Origin: an archaeon
GTDB taxonomy: Archaea; Thermoplasmatota; Thermoplasmata; Methanomassiliicoccales; Methanomethylophilaceae
Direction of reading: 5' to 3'
Assembly (NCBI GenBank): GCA_024399155.1
Contig: JAKSHX010000009.1
Coordinates: forward strand, 1-34,014
Length of the DNA stretch: 34,014 nucleotides
Shown piece after piece: positions 25,506-31,894 of the stretch (positions within the stretch are counted from its first letter, which is position 1; the number at the start of each line of letters is the position of its first letter). Position numbers and translations under genes: made by a program. The notes under the pieces were generated by a model. That model saw only the letters and a list, made by a program, of their open reading frames with translations, did not search any database and was not told the origin of the DNA.

Positions 25506-26225
25506 TCAACGTCTTCCTTTGGGTTTACCGGTGTTACGTACGGGTTTTTGATATATTCGCAACAAAACCATAAGCATTATTACTAAAACCACGACTACGA
25601 TGATTTCAATTATGAAATAATTGTTATCAGATGGATAGAATTTTTTTTCGCATCCAAGACCTGAAATACTACAAATTTTACTCTCAGTTTCGAGACTGTA
25701 TACCGTGTTGTTGACATCTCTGGTAAAGAAATCGTAAGTAATATTTTTAGTACTGTTGGCATTGATGCTGACGTTTTGGACGCTGTCTTCTACTTTTTTT
25801 CCATTAATTTTAATAAAAACTGGAAGGTCAACGTTTGTGTTATTATTATTTTTCAATGTAAATTTTAATTTTATTGGCTTGACAATTTTTATTGGTATCT
25901 CTTTAATACCTACATGCTCTGACTTGTCGCTATTTAAAAAGAATTCTAATTTTAACACGTAATCACCCTCTTCGGGTGCTTTGATATCAATTGACCCATT
26001 ATGTGATGACCCCGACAATTTTCCGTTATATGGAGATATTGTTCCAGAGGATGAACCAGAAGAATTCAGAAAAGATGCAAGAAAATAGTAATCGTCATTG
26101 CCTCTAAGCGTACATTTTAAAGTCTTATTAACTCCGCACCAATCCTGTTCTGGTGTAACGTTGATGTTTGGATCTGTTATATTTGATTCGTCAGCAGCAA
26201 CATTTCCTAGCATACATATGACCAA
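25506..26225 (-). CDS. Secreted, C-terminally anchored surface protein without a normal start
   Basis: I do not recognise a named family. The product has an extracellular, Asn/Thr/Ser-rich body with about four cysteines and many N-x-S/T sequons. A CARDB/Ig-like segment (about 115-185, PIKLKFTLKNNNNTNVD) follows, then one C-terminal membrane helix (about 204-224) with a basic tail. The start is a problem: the only canonical in-frame start is TTG at 26225. The frame upstream is open to 26276 and encodes a good hydrophobic signal sequence (IIPIGIISLLVICMLGN) with no ATG or GTG. This stretch overlaps the end of the STT3-like gene in the -1 frame. See findings for the alternatives. It is probably co-expressed with that giant gene. 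Confidence 0.7.
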   Translation of the reverse strand: MVICMLGNVAADESNITDPNINVTPEQDWCGVNKTLKCTLRGNDDYYFLASFLNSSGSSSGTISPYNGKLSGSSHNGSIDIKAPEEGDYVLKLEFFLNSDKSEHVGIKEIPIKIVKPIKLKFTLKNNNNTNVDLPVFIKINGKKVEDSVQNVSINANSTKNITYDFFTRDVNNTVYSLETESKICSISGLGCEKKFYPSDNNYFIIEIIVVVVLVIMLMVLLRIYQKPVRNTGKPKGRR

Positions 26226-26248: not shown

Positions 26249-29200
26249 TTATTTTCTGCGTGTAAACACTCCCCTTCTAAAAGCTTCCCATATCGTAATG
26301 AAAAGCAATATGATGATCATAACGATAAGAACCCAAATTGCAACAGGCATGCTTCTCATATTGTTGACCACATATCTTCCATCCGCACTGCTATCAGTAA
26401 TATCAATAATAAAATTTGACGCAATCTTGGATTCAAACGATTCAGGCGTATCTATTGCACCATCGATCGCGTTTATAGTAAACTTGATTGATTTTGGAAA
26501 TTCATGTGGTCCATATTTGGACGTCAATTTAAGAGAAACTGTAGCCGTATTATACCCTGGCACGTTTATGTTATTTAATTCATTAGTTTCTTTCTCGTTA
26601 TAAATATAAGTTTTGTGCCAATATTCTTCTATCCGTTCATGGTCAATTTTGAATTTTTTAACGTAATTGTCTTTATTGACGATTTCAAGGGCATACGTAG
26701 CATACGAGTCTCCAATCGAATTAATTCCAGCATGGATTTCTATAGATTTACAATCAGTTTTGTCAATTTTGTACCATTTATTGTTGGGATCGTCAAGTAC
26801 TTCAGTTCCGCAAACTTTGTCATTAAGGTCTTTCAGAGTTATCGATAGATTATTTGAACCTAATCCAACTTTGAGACTTATAGTGCCTTTACCGTAGATA
26901 GTAGTGCTATCATTTACCGACGAAATCTGATGGGTCATCTGCTTATCACTATAAAATGACACGTGGTACCAATCTGATCCTCCAGAAATAGTGTATGTCT
27001 TGTTTTTTGTATTGCCTTTAGATAACTGTAATGAAAAAATAATTTCAGCTACATCTCCATTAATTGACATTTTATCAATTTTTGAGTCAATTTCTATTTC
27101 ATCAGTTTTACCGGTTGCTTTATTTTCTCTGGTTACCGCCAAATTATAAACTTTTTCACCACTCCAATTGAGACAATTTATGCTGTCTGACGCAGTGTAT
27201 AACTGTTTGTCTTTATTTTTGATCGATGCTGAAAGTTCAAGGGATTCACATGTTGGTACAAAAATCTTGTATCTTCCGGATTCGTCCACATCGAAATCGA
27301 GTTTCTCATCACCGATAGTTGCAGTGATCTTACCGCTGCCAGCAAGTCCTACAAATCCTGTGAGAGTAAACATTGGCTTACTTGTATTATCAATGTTTAT
27401 AGTTTCAGCCTTGGAAATATTTTTATACAGCACCTTTTTGGAATCATTATTTATTGCAGTAACACGAAATTTTTTGTCATGTTCTAGATAATATGTGCCA
27501 TTTGATGCGTCAATTTTCCTTCCGCTATCCATTGGGTCAATATTAACTTTGTAGTTGTTGGCATTCACAATCTTTAGAGGATAATACTCGACAACATCGA
27601 AGGTGTTGTTGTTAATTATGATTTTTTTAGTAGTTGGATCTTTAGTGGTTGGCGTTATATGCATGCGCCCTTCGTAATAGTAATGATGATTGGCGTCCGT
27701 ATGATCGATCTTTATATGCTGTGCGTTTGATGTAATTTTGATATTTGCATTAGATTTGTTTTCTATCTTCATGCCACCTATTTCAATCGGGTAATTTGCA
27801 TTGTTTTGAACGTTTATGTCACATAGATGTACTTTAAGGTCGGCTTTATCAGTTACTTCTATTTCATCTTTATCAGTTACTTTTACCCCATTAGCATCGA
27901 CGACATGGTAGTTATCACTCTCATATATCTTGATTTTGCATTTCTCTTTATCAGGTATGTAGAACTTGTAGGATCCAGTCATATCAGTGACAAAATTCAA
28001 ATTATGATCTTTGATATTAACATTAAATGGTACATAACACATTTTGAGATCGACTGGCTGACATGATACTTTTACTTCGATAAGTTTGCCTTGTTCTAGT
28101 TTAATGTCGTGCTTTTCTGAATTACTAACAATATATGAGTCAATAACTGCATCGGACCCCTTATCAGCGTAGGCGTATACTGTGTATTCTCCTTCTCCCA
28201 GAGAGACGTCATATTTTCCATCTGGTGAATGCACCGGTATTTGTATACCATCTCTGATGAATAAAATCGTTCCAGCCGTTGTTGTCCCTGATGACGTTTT
28301 AAGTTCCCCAGAAATCTTTATCGCATTGTGTCCTGCAGCTTTTCCGTCATCTGACTTTGCTATGTCTACTTTTTCTTTATTAAGACTGTATGCCGAATAA
28401 ATAACTTTATCACTAATTCCCCTAGGAAGTTTAATTGATAACGATCCATCGATATCGGCGGTTCCAGATGTTTGATACCCTGAACTGTAAATCTTTATCT
28501 CGCTATTGGGTGAGAAACCATTGAAGTTAACTGTTTTGGATGACATTGCCGTAATCGTCTTTGATATACCAGTATTTTTAACATTATCGACATCATTGAC
28601 AATAAGTTCTTGTGTTATGGATATGTAATCTTCGTCAAACTCTATTTTGTATGTTCCATTGGGTACATTGTAAACAGCCATGCCGTCATCGTCAATTTCA
28701 CTGGTATACGAGACGTTAGCCGTATCAATGAGCTTTGCTTTTTTACCGGATAATGATTTTAATCCAAACTCATCTTTAAATGTCAATGTAACCTTACATG
28801 TTTTTGTTTTGGATTCTACATCTTCATTAATTTTAAATTCTACACCCTTATTGTCTCCGGGAATAATCATGTGGGTTTTTGCTACATATGTGGTCTTTTC
28901 ATCTAGTGACGTGATTTTCACATCATAAACGTCGGGAACAATGTTTTTTATTGATATCTCGTTCGATGACCCTTCATATTTGCCCTCTGTACCGGTAGTC
29001 TTTCCTTTCATAACAACCTTCACTTCGAGTCCAACATCTTTGCCATCCTTATCAACACAGTTTCCATTAACAGATGTTTGTGGAATATTGGCATCATATT
29101 TATCGCCAATCTTTACAGTTTTGATTGGCATTCCATCAGAAAGGTTGTTGCTTCCAGTATAAAAGTTAATGGTAGATTTCTGATTGGTAACGTTAAGATT

Positions 29201-31894
29201 GAATTTACCGTTGTTATCTGTATATGTTGTAGATCTGACCATTCCATCTGGATCGATGGCACTAACACGCACTCCTTTGACACCGGAATCACGACAATTA
29301 ACAGTACAACTAACAGTTCCAGAAACAGTTATTCCATCGGAATTGGGGATGTACTTCAAAAACACTGGAAGTCCACTAAGATAGTTGATGAGTCCTCCTT
29401 CCTTTTCCTGTTTTGATATTGCATCGGCGTAAAGCATTTTAGTCCATCCGTCAGATGATGCTGTTGCACTCTTGTCTGGATTATACATGACGAACCAGTG
29501 ATCAAGCTCTGCTACATAGTTAGAGAGCCCATATCCAGGTTGTGCCTTGTATTTACCATCACTGAGTGTTAGCTTAGTAAGATAATCCAATGTATCGTCA
29601 ATCTCGGCTTCTTTTGGGGACATTCCTATATACGATCTCCACAGGAAAGTGTTGTACATTTTATCTGTGTAAGAATAATAGACTATGCCTGTGTTTGTAA
29701 CGGTGCGACCATCAGTAAACTCTCTAGTTGTTTTATTGTCCGCAACGGTATAACCATTACTAATGACCATATCGTTAAACGCGGAACTGCGCCAATAGTA
29801 CATAGGGAATATTGACCCATCAATCATAAAATGCGAGATTTTACATCTGTCTCTTAAAGCATCATACATTTTTGAGATCGTAAACCCATCATATTTCTTG
29901 GTAAGAAACCACTTTCCGTAAAGATATGATATGTTTTCATCGGAAACGGATTTACTGACAGTACTAAAATCATCTTTACCGATAACATCAGATCTGAATT
30001 CACAAGGATTGTTGACAATTCTCATGAGCTTGCAGTAGTCTTCTTCTTCGAGTCCTGCTTTATTAAGTTTATCTTTTATGTCGTCGTCAAATCCCGTCTG
30101 TTTTAAGGTGTAGATAAGCATCGCAGCCGTAGACGACCCATTTATGCCGTTAGAAAGAAAGATATTTGATACGGCTACCGCACCATTTCCCTTGGAATCA
30201 GTAATAACATCGAACCCACCAAAAGTGGATGCATCGTTAGAATTGCTAGACCAGCAGACCATTGCTCCGTTTTTGTCTGAATGTTGATATGTAAGAAGAG
30301 CATTGTTGACATCAGTAATATCGTATCCAACAAGACCAGGGTCTGGTCCATAAAGATCATTGTTCTGATTAACAGAAATACTTGCGTCTACAGCATACAC
30401 CACGTTAGGAGCGATCAACAGAAAAATAGTAGACAGTATTGATACAAATGGCGCAGGCTTGATGAGTTTCTTCCAAAATGTTTTGAAATTAGCTGTCTTG
30501 AAAGATGCAAAATATGATTTAAAATCGATGGAATTGAATAACCATGTCATGACATATGAAAATCCAATTGCGAATACAAACGAGAACATTGTAGCATAAC
30601 TCTGCGACTTCCACCCATAATAAGTTCCAAAAAATATTATCATGAACACTGTAATATATTTGTGAGACCCAATGTTTTTACGAATGTTTATGAGCATTGA
30701 GATAACCATCGCTAAACTAAACCACAATGCGACGGGTCCAAAAAATGTTGACATTCGCGAGATTGACATTTTACTTGCGACTAATTTTGAGACTTCTGGT
30801 GCATAACCACTGTTACCGTAAACAACTGAATTAAAAAGATTTGGCGTTATAACAGCTAGCCCGATGAAAAACGCAAGTGTAATAATGGTAAACACAGGAA
30901 TCGTGATTGCACAAGGCATGGTTTGAAGCATTGAAAAAGCAACACATATCGCAATTGCAAACATAGTTGCTATGAAAATTCCTGATAAAACATTGTTCCA
31001 GAGGCTTGCTGGTATGTAGTATGCTGTTGCAACAATCATTCCAATAAGAATTATTATTGAAAAATACAGAATTGGTAATCTGGAATCAATATTCCTGAGA
31101 CGATCGACAATAACTACGGCGACCATAACAAAAATAAGTGTAACGACTACGGGACGAAAATTACTTGTCGAAATTGTAATGAGTGCCAGAATAGCCCCCG
31201 ATATTAGTCCATACTTCATTGATCGATGATTATTTTTCACTACGTTGTCTAATTTGTCTTCTTTTGGAAGGATATTAAACGATTTTATTCCTTTAATGAA
31301 TAAAGTAAAAAATATGGTTATGAGAAGAAGATGCCATCCGACCTCGGCACCATTAGAAAACACAGTCTGAGAGATTACAACGGGACAAAATGCCATAAAG
31401 ATGGCGGTGAAGTACCCTGCTTTTCTTGTTCCAACAACTTCCATACCAAGAATGTACGCTATTACTACGGTAATTGTTCCACATAAAACGGCGAACGTCC
31501 CGAGCGCAAGCGATGCCGCCACAATTGGAGGCACTCCGGCGTTCATAACACCTGCTGCAATACCCGCAATGATGAAATCGATAACTATGGGATTTCCGTT
31601 AATAGAACCACATGGATAACATAATGAACTGACTGGCCCGAATACATTGTTGCCTTTTAATATTTGTACTACCGTATGTAGGTGTTCTGATGCTTCTAAT
31701 CCTCCGGACAACGCAAACATATTATCCGTTGATGTACCAAAAGAAAAAGCAGCCCTTATGACAAAGGCTATAATAGCTATCATCCCTACAATGATGACTG
31801 AGGTTTTCTTTCCAGTGGACCACAAACTTTTTTCTTTTAAATGTGGAGCGGCCTCTGTACAAGACCCTTCCGATTTCTTGCTGGTTTTTGGCAT
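26249..31894 (-). CDS. Giant STT3/AglB-like membrane protein fused to beta-rich repeats
   Basis: The 1881-residue protein begins like an archaeal oligosaccharyltransferase (AglB/STT3, GT-C fold). It has about 13 membrane helices between 31 and 503, an EL1-like loop with YPCGSINGNPIVIDF (93-107), and a following globular region (about 503-850) with RCKISHFMIDGSIFPMYYW. Expected catalytic motifs look altered: GLEASEHL (65-72) where a D-x-YYH motif is usual, SNGAEVGWH (180-188) for D-x-D/H, and MVCWSS (545-550) for WWD; a Glu in the SVSE-like loop (E367) remains. Residues 850-1848 are a long series of carboxypeptidase-regulatory/Ig-like beta modules. A C-terminal membrane anchor (about 1852-1870) and a basic tail end the protein. 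GTGGAG precedes the ATG. Confidence 0.85.
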   Translation of the reverse strand: MPKTSKKSEGSCTEAAPHLKEKSLWSTGKKTSVIIVGMIAIIAFVIRAAFSFGTSTDNMFALSGGLEASEHLHTVVQILKGNNVFGPVSSLCYPCGSINGNPIVIDFIIAGIAAGVMNAGVPPIVAASLALGTFAVLCGTITVVIAYILGMEVVGTRKAGYFTAIFMAFCPVVISQTVFSNGAEVGWHLLLITIFFTLFIKGIKSFNILPKEDKLDNVVKNNHRSMKYGLISGAILALITISTSNFRPVVVTLIFVMVAVVIVDRLRNIDSRLPILYFSIIILIGMIVATAYYIPASLWNNVLSGIFIATMFAIAICVAFSMLQTMPCAITIPVFTIITLAFFIGLAVITPNLFNSVVYGNSGYAPEVSKLVASKMSISRMSTFFGPVALWFSLAMVISMLINIRKNIGSHKYITVFMIIFFGTYYGWKSQSYATMFSFVFAIGFSYVMTWLFNSIDFKSYFASFKTANFKTFWKKLIKPAPFVSILSTIFLLIAPNVVYAVDASISVNQNNDLYGPDPGLVGYDITDVNNALLTYQHSDKNGAMVCWSSNSNDASTFGGFDVITDSKGNGAVAVSNIFLSNGINGSSTAAMLIYTLKQTGFDDDIKDKLNKAGLEEEDYCKLMRIVNNPCEFRSDVIGKDDFSTVSKSVSDENISYLYGKWFLTKKYDGFTISKMYDALRDRCKISHFMIDGSIFPMYYWRSSAFNDMVISNGYTVADNKTTREFTDGRTVTNTGIVYYSYTDKMYNTFLWRSYIGMSPKEAEIDDTLDYLTKLTLSDGKYKAQPGYGLSNYVAELDHWFVMYNPDKSATASSDGWTKMLYADAISKQEKEGGLINYLSGLPVFLKYIPNSDGITVSGTVSCTVNCRDSGVKGVRVSAIDPDGMVRSTTYTDNNGKFNLNVTNQKSTINFYTGSNNLSDGMPIKTVKIGDKYDANIPQTSVNGNCVDKDGKDVGLEVKVVMKGKTTGTEGKYEGSSNEISIKNIVPDVYDVKITSLDEKTTYVAKTHMIIPGDNKGVEFKINEDVESKTKTCKVTLTFKDEFGLKSLSGKKAKLIDTANVSYTSEIDDDGMAVYNVPNGTYKIEFDEDYISITQELIVNDVDNVKNTGISKTITAMSSKTVNFNGFSPNSEIKIYSSGYQTSGTADIDGSLSIKLPRGISDKVIYSAYSLNKEKVDIAKSDDGKAAGHNAIKISGELKTSSGTTTAGTILFIRDGIQIPVHSPDGKYDVSLGEGEYTVYAYADKGSDAVIDSYIVSNSEKHDIKLEQGKLIEVKVSCQPVDLKMCYVPFNVNIKDHNLNFVTDMTGSYKFYIPDKEKCKIKIYESDNYHVVDANGVKVTDKDEIEVTDKADLKVHLCDINVQNNANYPIEIGGMKIENKSNANIKITSNAQHIKIDHTDANHHYYYEGRMHITPTTKDPTTKKIIINNNTFDVVEYYPLKIVNANNYKVNIDPMDSGRKIDASNGTYYLEHDKKFRVTAINNDSKKVLYKNISKAETINIDNTSKPMFTLTGFVGLAGSGKITATIGDEKLDFDVDESGRYKIFVPTCESLELSASIKNKDKQLYTASDSINCLNWSGEKVYNLAVTRENKATGKTDEIEIDSKIDKMSINGDVAEIIFSLQLSKGNTKNKTYTISGGSDWYHVSFYSDKQMTHQISSVNDSTTIYGKGTISLKVGLGSNNLSITLKDLNDKVCGTEVLDDPNNKWYKIDKTDCKSIEIHAGINSIGDSYATYALEIVNKDNYVKKFKIDHERIEEYWHKTYIYNEKETNELNNINVPGYNTATVSLKLTSKYGPHEFPKSIKFTINAIDGAIDTPESFESKIASNFIIDITDSSADGRYVVNNMRSMPVAIWVLIVMIIILLFITIWEAFRRGVFTRRK

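Follow-up and report, generated by a model that had tools for sequence, protein, structure and literature searches.

Oligosaccharyltransferase has been called, in one passage of the literature, the 'signature enzyme' of N-glycosylation (PMC5131992). Of 168 archaeal genomes, only two were reported to lack AglB, which was read as N-glycosylation being common in Archaea (PMC4022621), and papers on the Thermoplasmatales merely record that AglB is present (PMC3750248; PMC5155288). No account of the AglB extension described below, or of an AglB lacking its motifs, was found in the open-licence literature.

The AglB of A. fulgidus (AfAglB; structures 3waj, 3wak, 5gmy, and 7e9s) is 875 aa long, carries all motifs, and has proven activity. 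In AglB, the loop EL5 closes over both substrates. The metal ligands of AfAglB are Asp47 in the first DXD and Asp161 and His163 in the second DXD; Glu360 of the TIXE motif is needed and participates via waters, TIXE pairs with the sequon, and the WWDYG motif binds the Ser/Thr of the sequon (PMC8342417).

The window, i.e., the whole stretch of DNA analysed here, comprises 34,014 nucleotides of contig JAKSHX010000009.1 from an archaeon of the Methanomethylophilaceae (order Methanomassiliicoccales). All features described below lie on its minus strand. A single, intact open reading frame at 26249..31894 encodes 1881 residues and, based on single-copy orthologues and synteny, is a giant membrane protein descended from AglB/STT3 that has lost its catalytic motifs. 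It differs from AfAglB in having no intact motif and about 1000 extra residues.

Architecture and orthology of the window protein

The AlphaFold2 model of residues 30-855 (29330..31807), a predicted oligosaccharyltransferase-fold core made up of a multi-helix membrane region and a globular domain, had a pLDDT of 83.9 and a pTM of 0.77. Foldseek matched this model to A. fulgidus AglB (7e9s/3wak) and to human, yeast, and bacterial oligosaccharyltransferases with E values of 1e-12 to 1e-6 and a probability of 1.00; the top 19 matches were all oligosaccharyltransferases (AglB/STT3/PglB). AfAglB shares its fold with the window protein in both the membrane core and the globular domain, and a profile of window-gene orthologues matched AfAglB (3waj) with an E value of 9e-36. 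The sequence of the window protein alone had no STT3 match in Pfam (at the PF02516 gathering score) or NCBIfam; many of its orthologues passed the PF02516 gathering score.

Residues 856-1850 (26345..29329) were predicted to form an extracellular, all-beta rod of sandwich modules in series. The first module (residues 856-906) is CarboxypepD_reg/transthyretin-like; the Pfam match to CarboxypepD_reg had an E value of 1.1e-5 with the whole protein and reached the gathering score when the rod was searched alone. The rods of motif-intact AglB proteins consist of serial CarboxypepD_reg/transthyretin-like modules, and the rod of the window group was homologous to them along its length (hhalign 100%, E 6e-64). 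Foldseek searches with the rod returned generic multidomain beta-sandwich proteins only, among them alpha-2-macroglobulin and pilins; the TM-scores did not suffice for a relative to be named. A C-terminal membrane helix at residues 1851-1873 (26276..26344) was predicted in the model of the C-terminal fragment (helix 1001-1023 of that fragment). Behind this helix the protein ends in a basic tail (final residues RRGVFTRRK) that is conserved across the Methanomassiliicoccales.

The orthologue profile match to 3waj, the matches of the core model, and the rod and helix predictions confirmed the architecture of an STT3/AglB-type core, a beta rod, and a C-terminal helix. The preliminary description of this DNA had proposed that an AglB-type core continues into a long extracellular rod and then an anchor, and all three parts stood. 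Its expectation that residues 1-500 would match STT3 held with a profile or at the level of the fold but not with the single sequence. Its treatment of the long extension as unusual did not survive, and the motif loss and the downstream gene described below had gone unnoticed.

In the class Thermoplasmata, the long form is what a single-copy AglB ordinarily looks like. It was found in 119 of the 121 sampled genomes, with complete frames mostly of about 2050-2270 aa, so an extension unique to the window gene was rejected. Phylum-wide, STT3 frames ranged from about 930 to about 3300 aa, and the 1881-aa size of the window protein is not unusual. Two families in the phylum search (f34 and f37) had STT3 frames of about 3000-3300 aa, exceeding the Thermoplasmata form.

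Within the order, the gene was present in single copy in all 74 high-quality genomes (completeness of at least 90% and contamination of at most 5%), which rules out an assembly artefact. The gene order hypB-purD-(small genes)-aglB-radical SAM-KH was common to motif-less loci, motif-intact loci, and one other order. Neither the genome containing the window nor its motif-less relatives held a second STT3. Given this shared gene order and the lack of another STT3, the window gene and the single Thermoplasmata aglB are direct orthologues, and the former is not a second gene; single copy, synteny, and the tree ruled out a paralogue, or a gene of foreign origin, accompanying a normal aglB.

The giant AglB proteins of other Thermoplasmata (e.g., L052, L164, L174, and L180) are likewise single copy, with a rod, a C-terminal helix, and the same downstream partner, and their gene order is the one common to the window's order and one other order. 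Unlike the window protein, they keep TIXE and WWDYG, and the CarboxypepD_reg modules of their rods are more recognisable.

Active-site motifs and their two losses

Motifs were compared in an alignment of 168 orthologous loci, reduced to 124 non-redundant sequences at 90% identity and anchored on both sides by the retained first Trp, S-G-G, and S-x-G. In the window protein the first DXD region (EL1) reads SGGLEASEH (residues 63-71; 31682..31708), with Glu67 as the equivalent of Asp47. The second DXD region (EL2) reads SNGAEVGW (residues 180-187; 31334..31357), with Ala183 and Val185 as the equivalents of Asp161 and His163. The expected TIXE site in EL5 reads SKLVASKM (residues 369-376; 30767..30790), with Ser374 at the Glu360 position, and the WWDYG position is occupied by WSSNS (residues 548-552, CWSSN in context; 30239..30253), in which only the first Trp is kept. 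The window protein thus has an oligosaccharyltransferase fold and is an AglB orthologue, yet it failed on all of the catalytic features tested: both DXD motifs, TIXE, and WWDYG. For this reason homology alone does not justify annotating it as an oligosaccharyltransferase.

The TIXE Glu, both Trp residues of WWDYG, and the WWDYG Asp were present in 58 of 58 motif-intact sequences, which came from other Thermoplasmata and from sister genera within the family. In the motif-less clade of the window gene's family, the TIXE Glu, the second WWDYG Trp, and the Asp161 equivalent were each found in none of the 65 sequences. The Asp47 equivalent was kept in nine of the 65 and was Ser or Gly in most, and no motif-less sequence had an acidic replacement at the Glu360 position. 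Trp548, the first Trp of WWDYG, was kept in 63 of the 65. The flanks of EL1 (ALSGG) and EL2 (S-x-G) were among the most conserved columns in the motif-less clade; several EL5 columns ranked among the most variable of the core. Taken by sequence, the loss of catalysis in the window protein and its motif-less relatives is strongly supported.

The 65 motif-less sequences formed one clade, which included named Methanomethylophilaceae records of Methanoplasma, Methanomicula, Methanomethylophilus sp. 1R26, UBA71, and others. On a tree of 59 sequences, the motif state changed exactly twice (starred support). One loss lay on the stem of the Methanomethylophilaceae minus genera g14 and g9, a branch of 1.5 substitutions per column; g9 is motif-intact and was left out of this tree as too incomplete. 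The other affected just one lineage, G041/L066, which belongs to another family and sits among motif-intact relatives; its branch measured 1.05 substitutions per column. L024 and L028, which branch earliest among the motif-less sequences, kept the EL1 Asp and had TWLDYG or TWLDFG, partial motifs of the kind expected of stepwise decay.

Pairwise dN/dS of the core (Nei-Gojobori counts) was 0.09-0.41 for motif-less pairs and 0.03-0.24 for motif-intact pairs, and the motif-less gene is under purifying selection. Across the order, frames of the gene were intact and long in 74 of 74 high-quality genomes, apart from truncations at contig edges; motif-less proteins were shorter in total length than their motif-intact relatives of the order. 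Active-site residues lost from a gene under purifying selection are one mark of a pseudoenzyme (a catalytically dead homologue with a retained function), and by sequence the motif-less protein bears it.

Among other Thermoplasmata orders or families, some sequences (L180-L183, L175, L177, and L179) had the second DXD replaced (e.g., by TDGRMHTP or TFGNYLPF) with the EL1 Asp, TIXE/TVXE, and WWDYG intact. These represent altered metal ligands in an otherwise normal AglB.

Partner gene and genome context

Directly downstream of aglB on the same strand, a gene of 239 aa (25506..26225) encodes a protein whose N-terminal segment is hydrophobic and which has a beta-sandwich ectodomain, a C-terminal membrane helix, and a basic tail (KPVRNTGKPKGRR). 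The two genes are separated by 23 nt in the window and often overlap by 4 nt elsewhere. The partner was present in all 76 loci with a readable downstream region, motif-intact and motif-less, other orders included; some of these copies were incomplete at the sequence end, and a few of the loci represent one genome counted twice. Relatives of the partner matched CARDB with E values of 1e-11 to 4e-4, and alignment placed them in one family. It is a class-wide, CARDB-type, single-pass membrane protein, translationally coupled to aglB. From this conserved linkage we infer that the partner is a candidate AglB accessory subunit.

Motif-less genomes had a median of three GT2 enzymes as compared with 10 in motif-intact genomes; for size-matched genomes (1.4-1.8 Mb) the medians were two and seven. 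The second motif-less lineage, G041, had four GT2 enzymes vs. at least nine in its family relatives. One or a few GT2 enzymes persisted in most motif-less genomes. Three near-complete motif-less genomes (G035, G026, and G098) had no match to Glycos_transf_2 (PF00535), unlike all other searched genomes of the order. An order-wide search for Flg_new (PF09479) found 2-67 matches per motif-less family genome, at least 68 in G041, and 0-2 in motif-intact genomes.

Passages of a report on genome reduction in gut methanogens likewise link fewer glycosyltransferases and gain of Flg_new to host-associated Methanomassiliicoccales; these passages discuss glycosyltransferase loss but not AglB decay, and Methanimicrococcus is reported to keep AglB (PMC9723798). 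The link of GT2 and Flg_new counts to motif loss is a correlation over two events, and since both counts also track host association, which may explain it, the change in AglB need not be the cause. PMT_2 was absent from the window's own genome. PF00953 was discarded as a marker of lost lipid-linked glycan synthesis because its absence from the whole order says nothing about losses.

The ratio of N-x-S/T to its reversed control, S/T-x-N, in the rod was 1.02 for motif-less proteins, 1.58 for motif-intact members of the order, and 1.99 for other orders. In secreted-like proteins, sampled from five genomes with 7-22 testable proteins each, the ratio failed to distinguish the groups and in part ran against expectation: it was 1.04 and 0.93 in motif-less genomes, 0.89 and 1.69 in motif-intact ones, and 1.86 in G041. 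No genome-wide loss of sequons is therefore claimed. It is for the rod only that sequon statistics support the pseudo-oligosaccharyltransferase reading.

Three of the GT2 matches contained a single in-frame TAG (G022:C2:165369-165830, G070:C2:18232-18708, and G106:C21:48484-48933). Members of the Methanomassiliicoccales use pyrrolysine, so these codons may be read through as Pyl.

Possible role of the motif-less protein

With its metal-binding, sequon-binding, and catalytic residues lost, the window protein very probably transfers no glycan. The active-site motifs were lost while the protein, its rod, and its partner gene were kept, which suggests a structural job that outlived the enzyme. We consider the window protein to be probably a pseudo-oligosaccharyltransferase that persists as a scaffold of the envelope or of secretion, most likely together with the CARDB protein. 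The 13-helix core and globular domain, probably joined by the co-transcribed single-pass protein of CARDB type, would provide a large base in the membrane. From this base the transthyretin/Ig-like modules, about 1000 residues in all, would extend directly outside the membrane. The modules might then act as an envelope spacer or as a scaffold on which secreted and surface proteins dock; the lineages concerned would have swapped glycosylated surface proteins for Flg_new adhesin-like ones. The scaffold role is proposed from the anatomy of the protein and its conservation, and a complex with the partner from conserved linkage. The preliminary description had offered the core as a membrane platform only as an alternative, and this has become the better-supported reading.

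Decay of an AglB pseudogene surviving by inertia would account for the long stem branch and the reduced total length, but the intact long frames, a dN/dS far below 1, and retention of the partner gene make it so improbable that it was rejected. The conserved first Trp and parts of EL1 and EL2 indicate that the pocket may still bind something, and two other explanations draw on this. The old pocket may have taken on a new, non-catalytic task as the receptor of a lipid carrier or a peptide, with the rod secondary. In the motif-less clade, A-L-S-G-G and S-x-G, which surround the former metal site, are strictly conserved, as would fit such a receptor. The receptor is nevertheless unlikely, as EL5, the loop that in AglB closes over both substrates, is largely unconstrained.

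The same conserved flanks and Trp548 might instead belong to a glycosyltransferase that is still active with altered chemistry or an altered acceptor (e.g., metal-independent, like other GT-C enzymes), its residues not aligning with those of AfAglB; persistence of the EL1 Asp in a few motif-less genera and of some GT2 enzymes agrees with this. Against an active enzyme stand the lack of any acidic substitute for Glu360, the variability of EL5, the Ser or Gly that replaces the EL1 acidic residue in most motif-less sequences, and the three genomes that encode the protein without any GT2 match. Together these leave continued catalysis very unlikely.

A wider proposal extends the scaffold reading to the class: Thermoplasmata AglB would combine an oligosaccharyltransferase core that bears a rod with a CARDB subunit, its essential role being a structural or secretory one, and gut lineages would have lost N-glycosylation twice and kept the dead scaffold. 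This is put forward tentatively, as a little short of an even chance. Catalysis was lost twice, separately, and each time the whole protein was kept, which points to a non-catalytic role of the oligosaccharyltransferase fold; this role could be tested by comparing, within one family, genera that kept the motifs with sister genera that lost them. If the proposal is true, a dead scaffold reveals a non-catalytic function of an oligosaccharyltransferase. The class-wide operon partner is a candidate accessory subunit of the archaeal enzyme. The aglB orthologue of this mostly gut methanogen family cannot be read as evidence of N-glycosylation, and annotation by homology would mislead.

The rods of motif-intact proteins (L052 and others) showed a possible likeness to the eukaryotic luminal, translocon-associated, transthyretin-like rods of NOMO and EMC7. 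NOMO_5th was matched in 20 of 22 motif-intact rods and the EMC7 beta-sandwich in four of 22. This is a resemblance only; NOMO is a separate chain and, unlike the window rod, is not fused to STT3. As CarboxypepD_reg scored far better than NOMO_5th or EMC7, the likeness may reflect superfamily similarity only.
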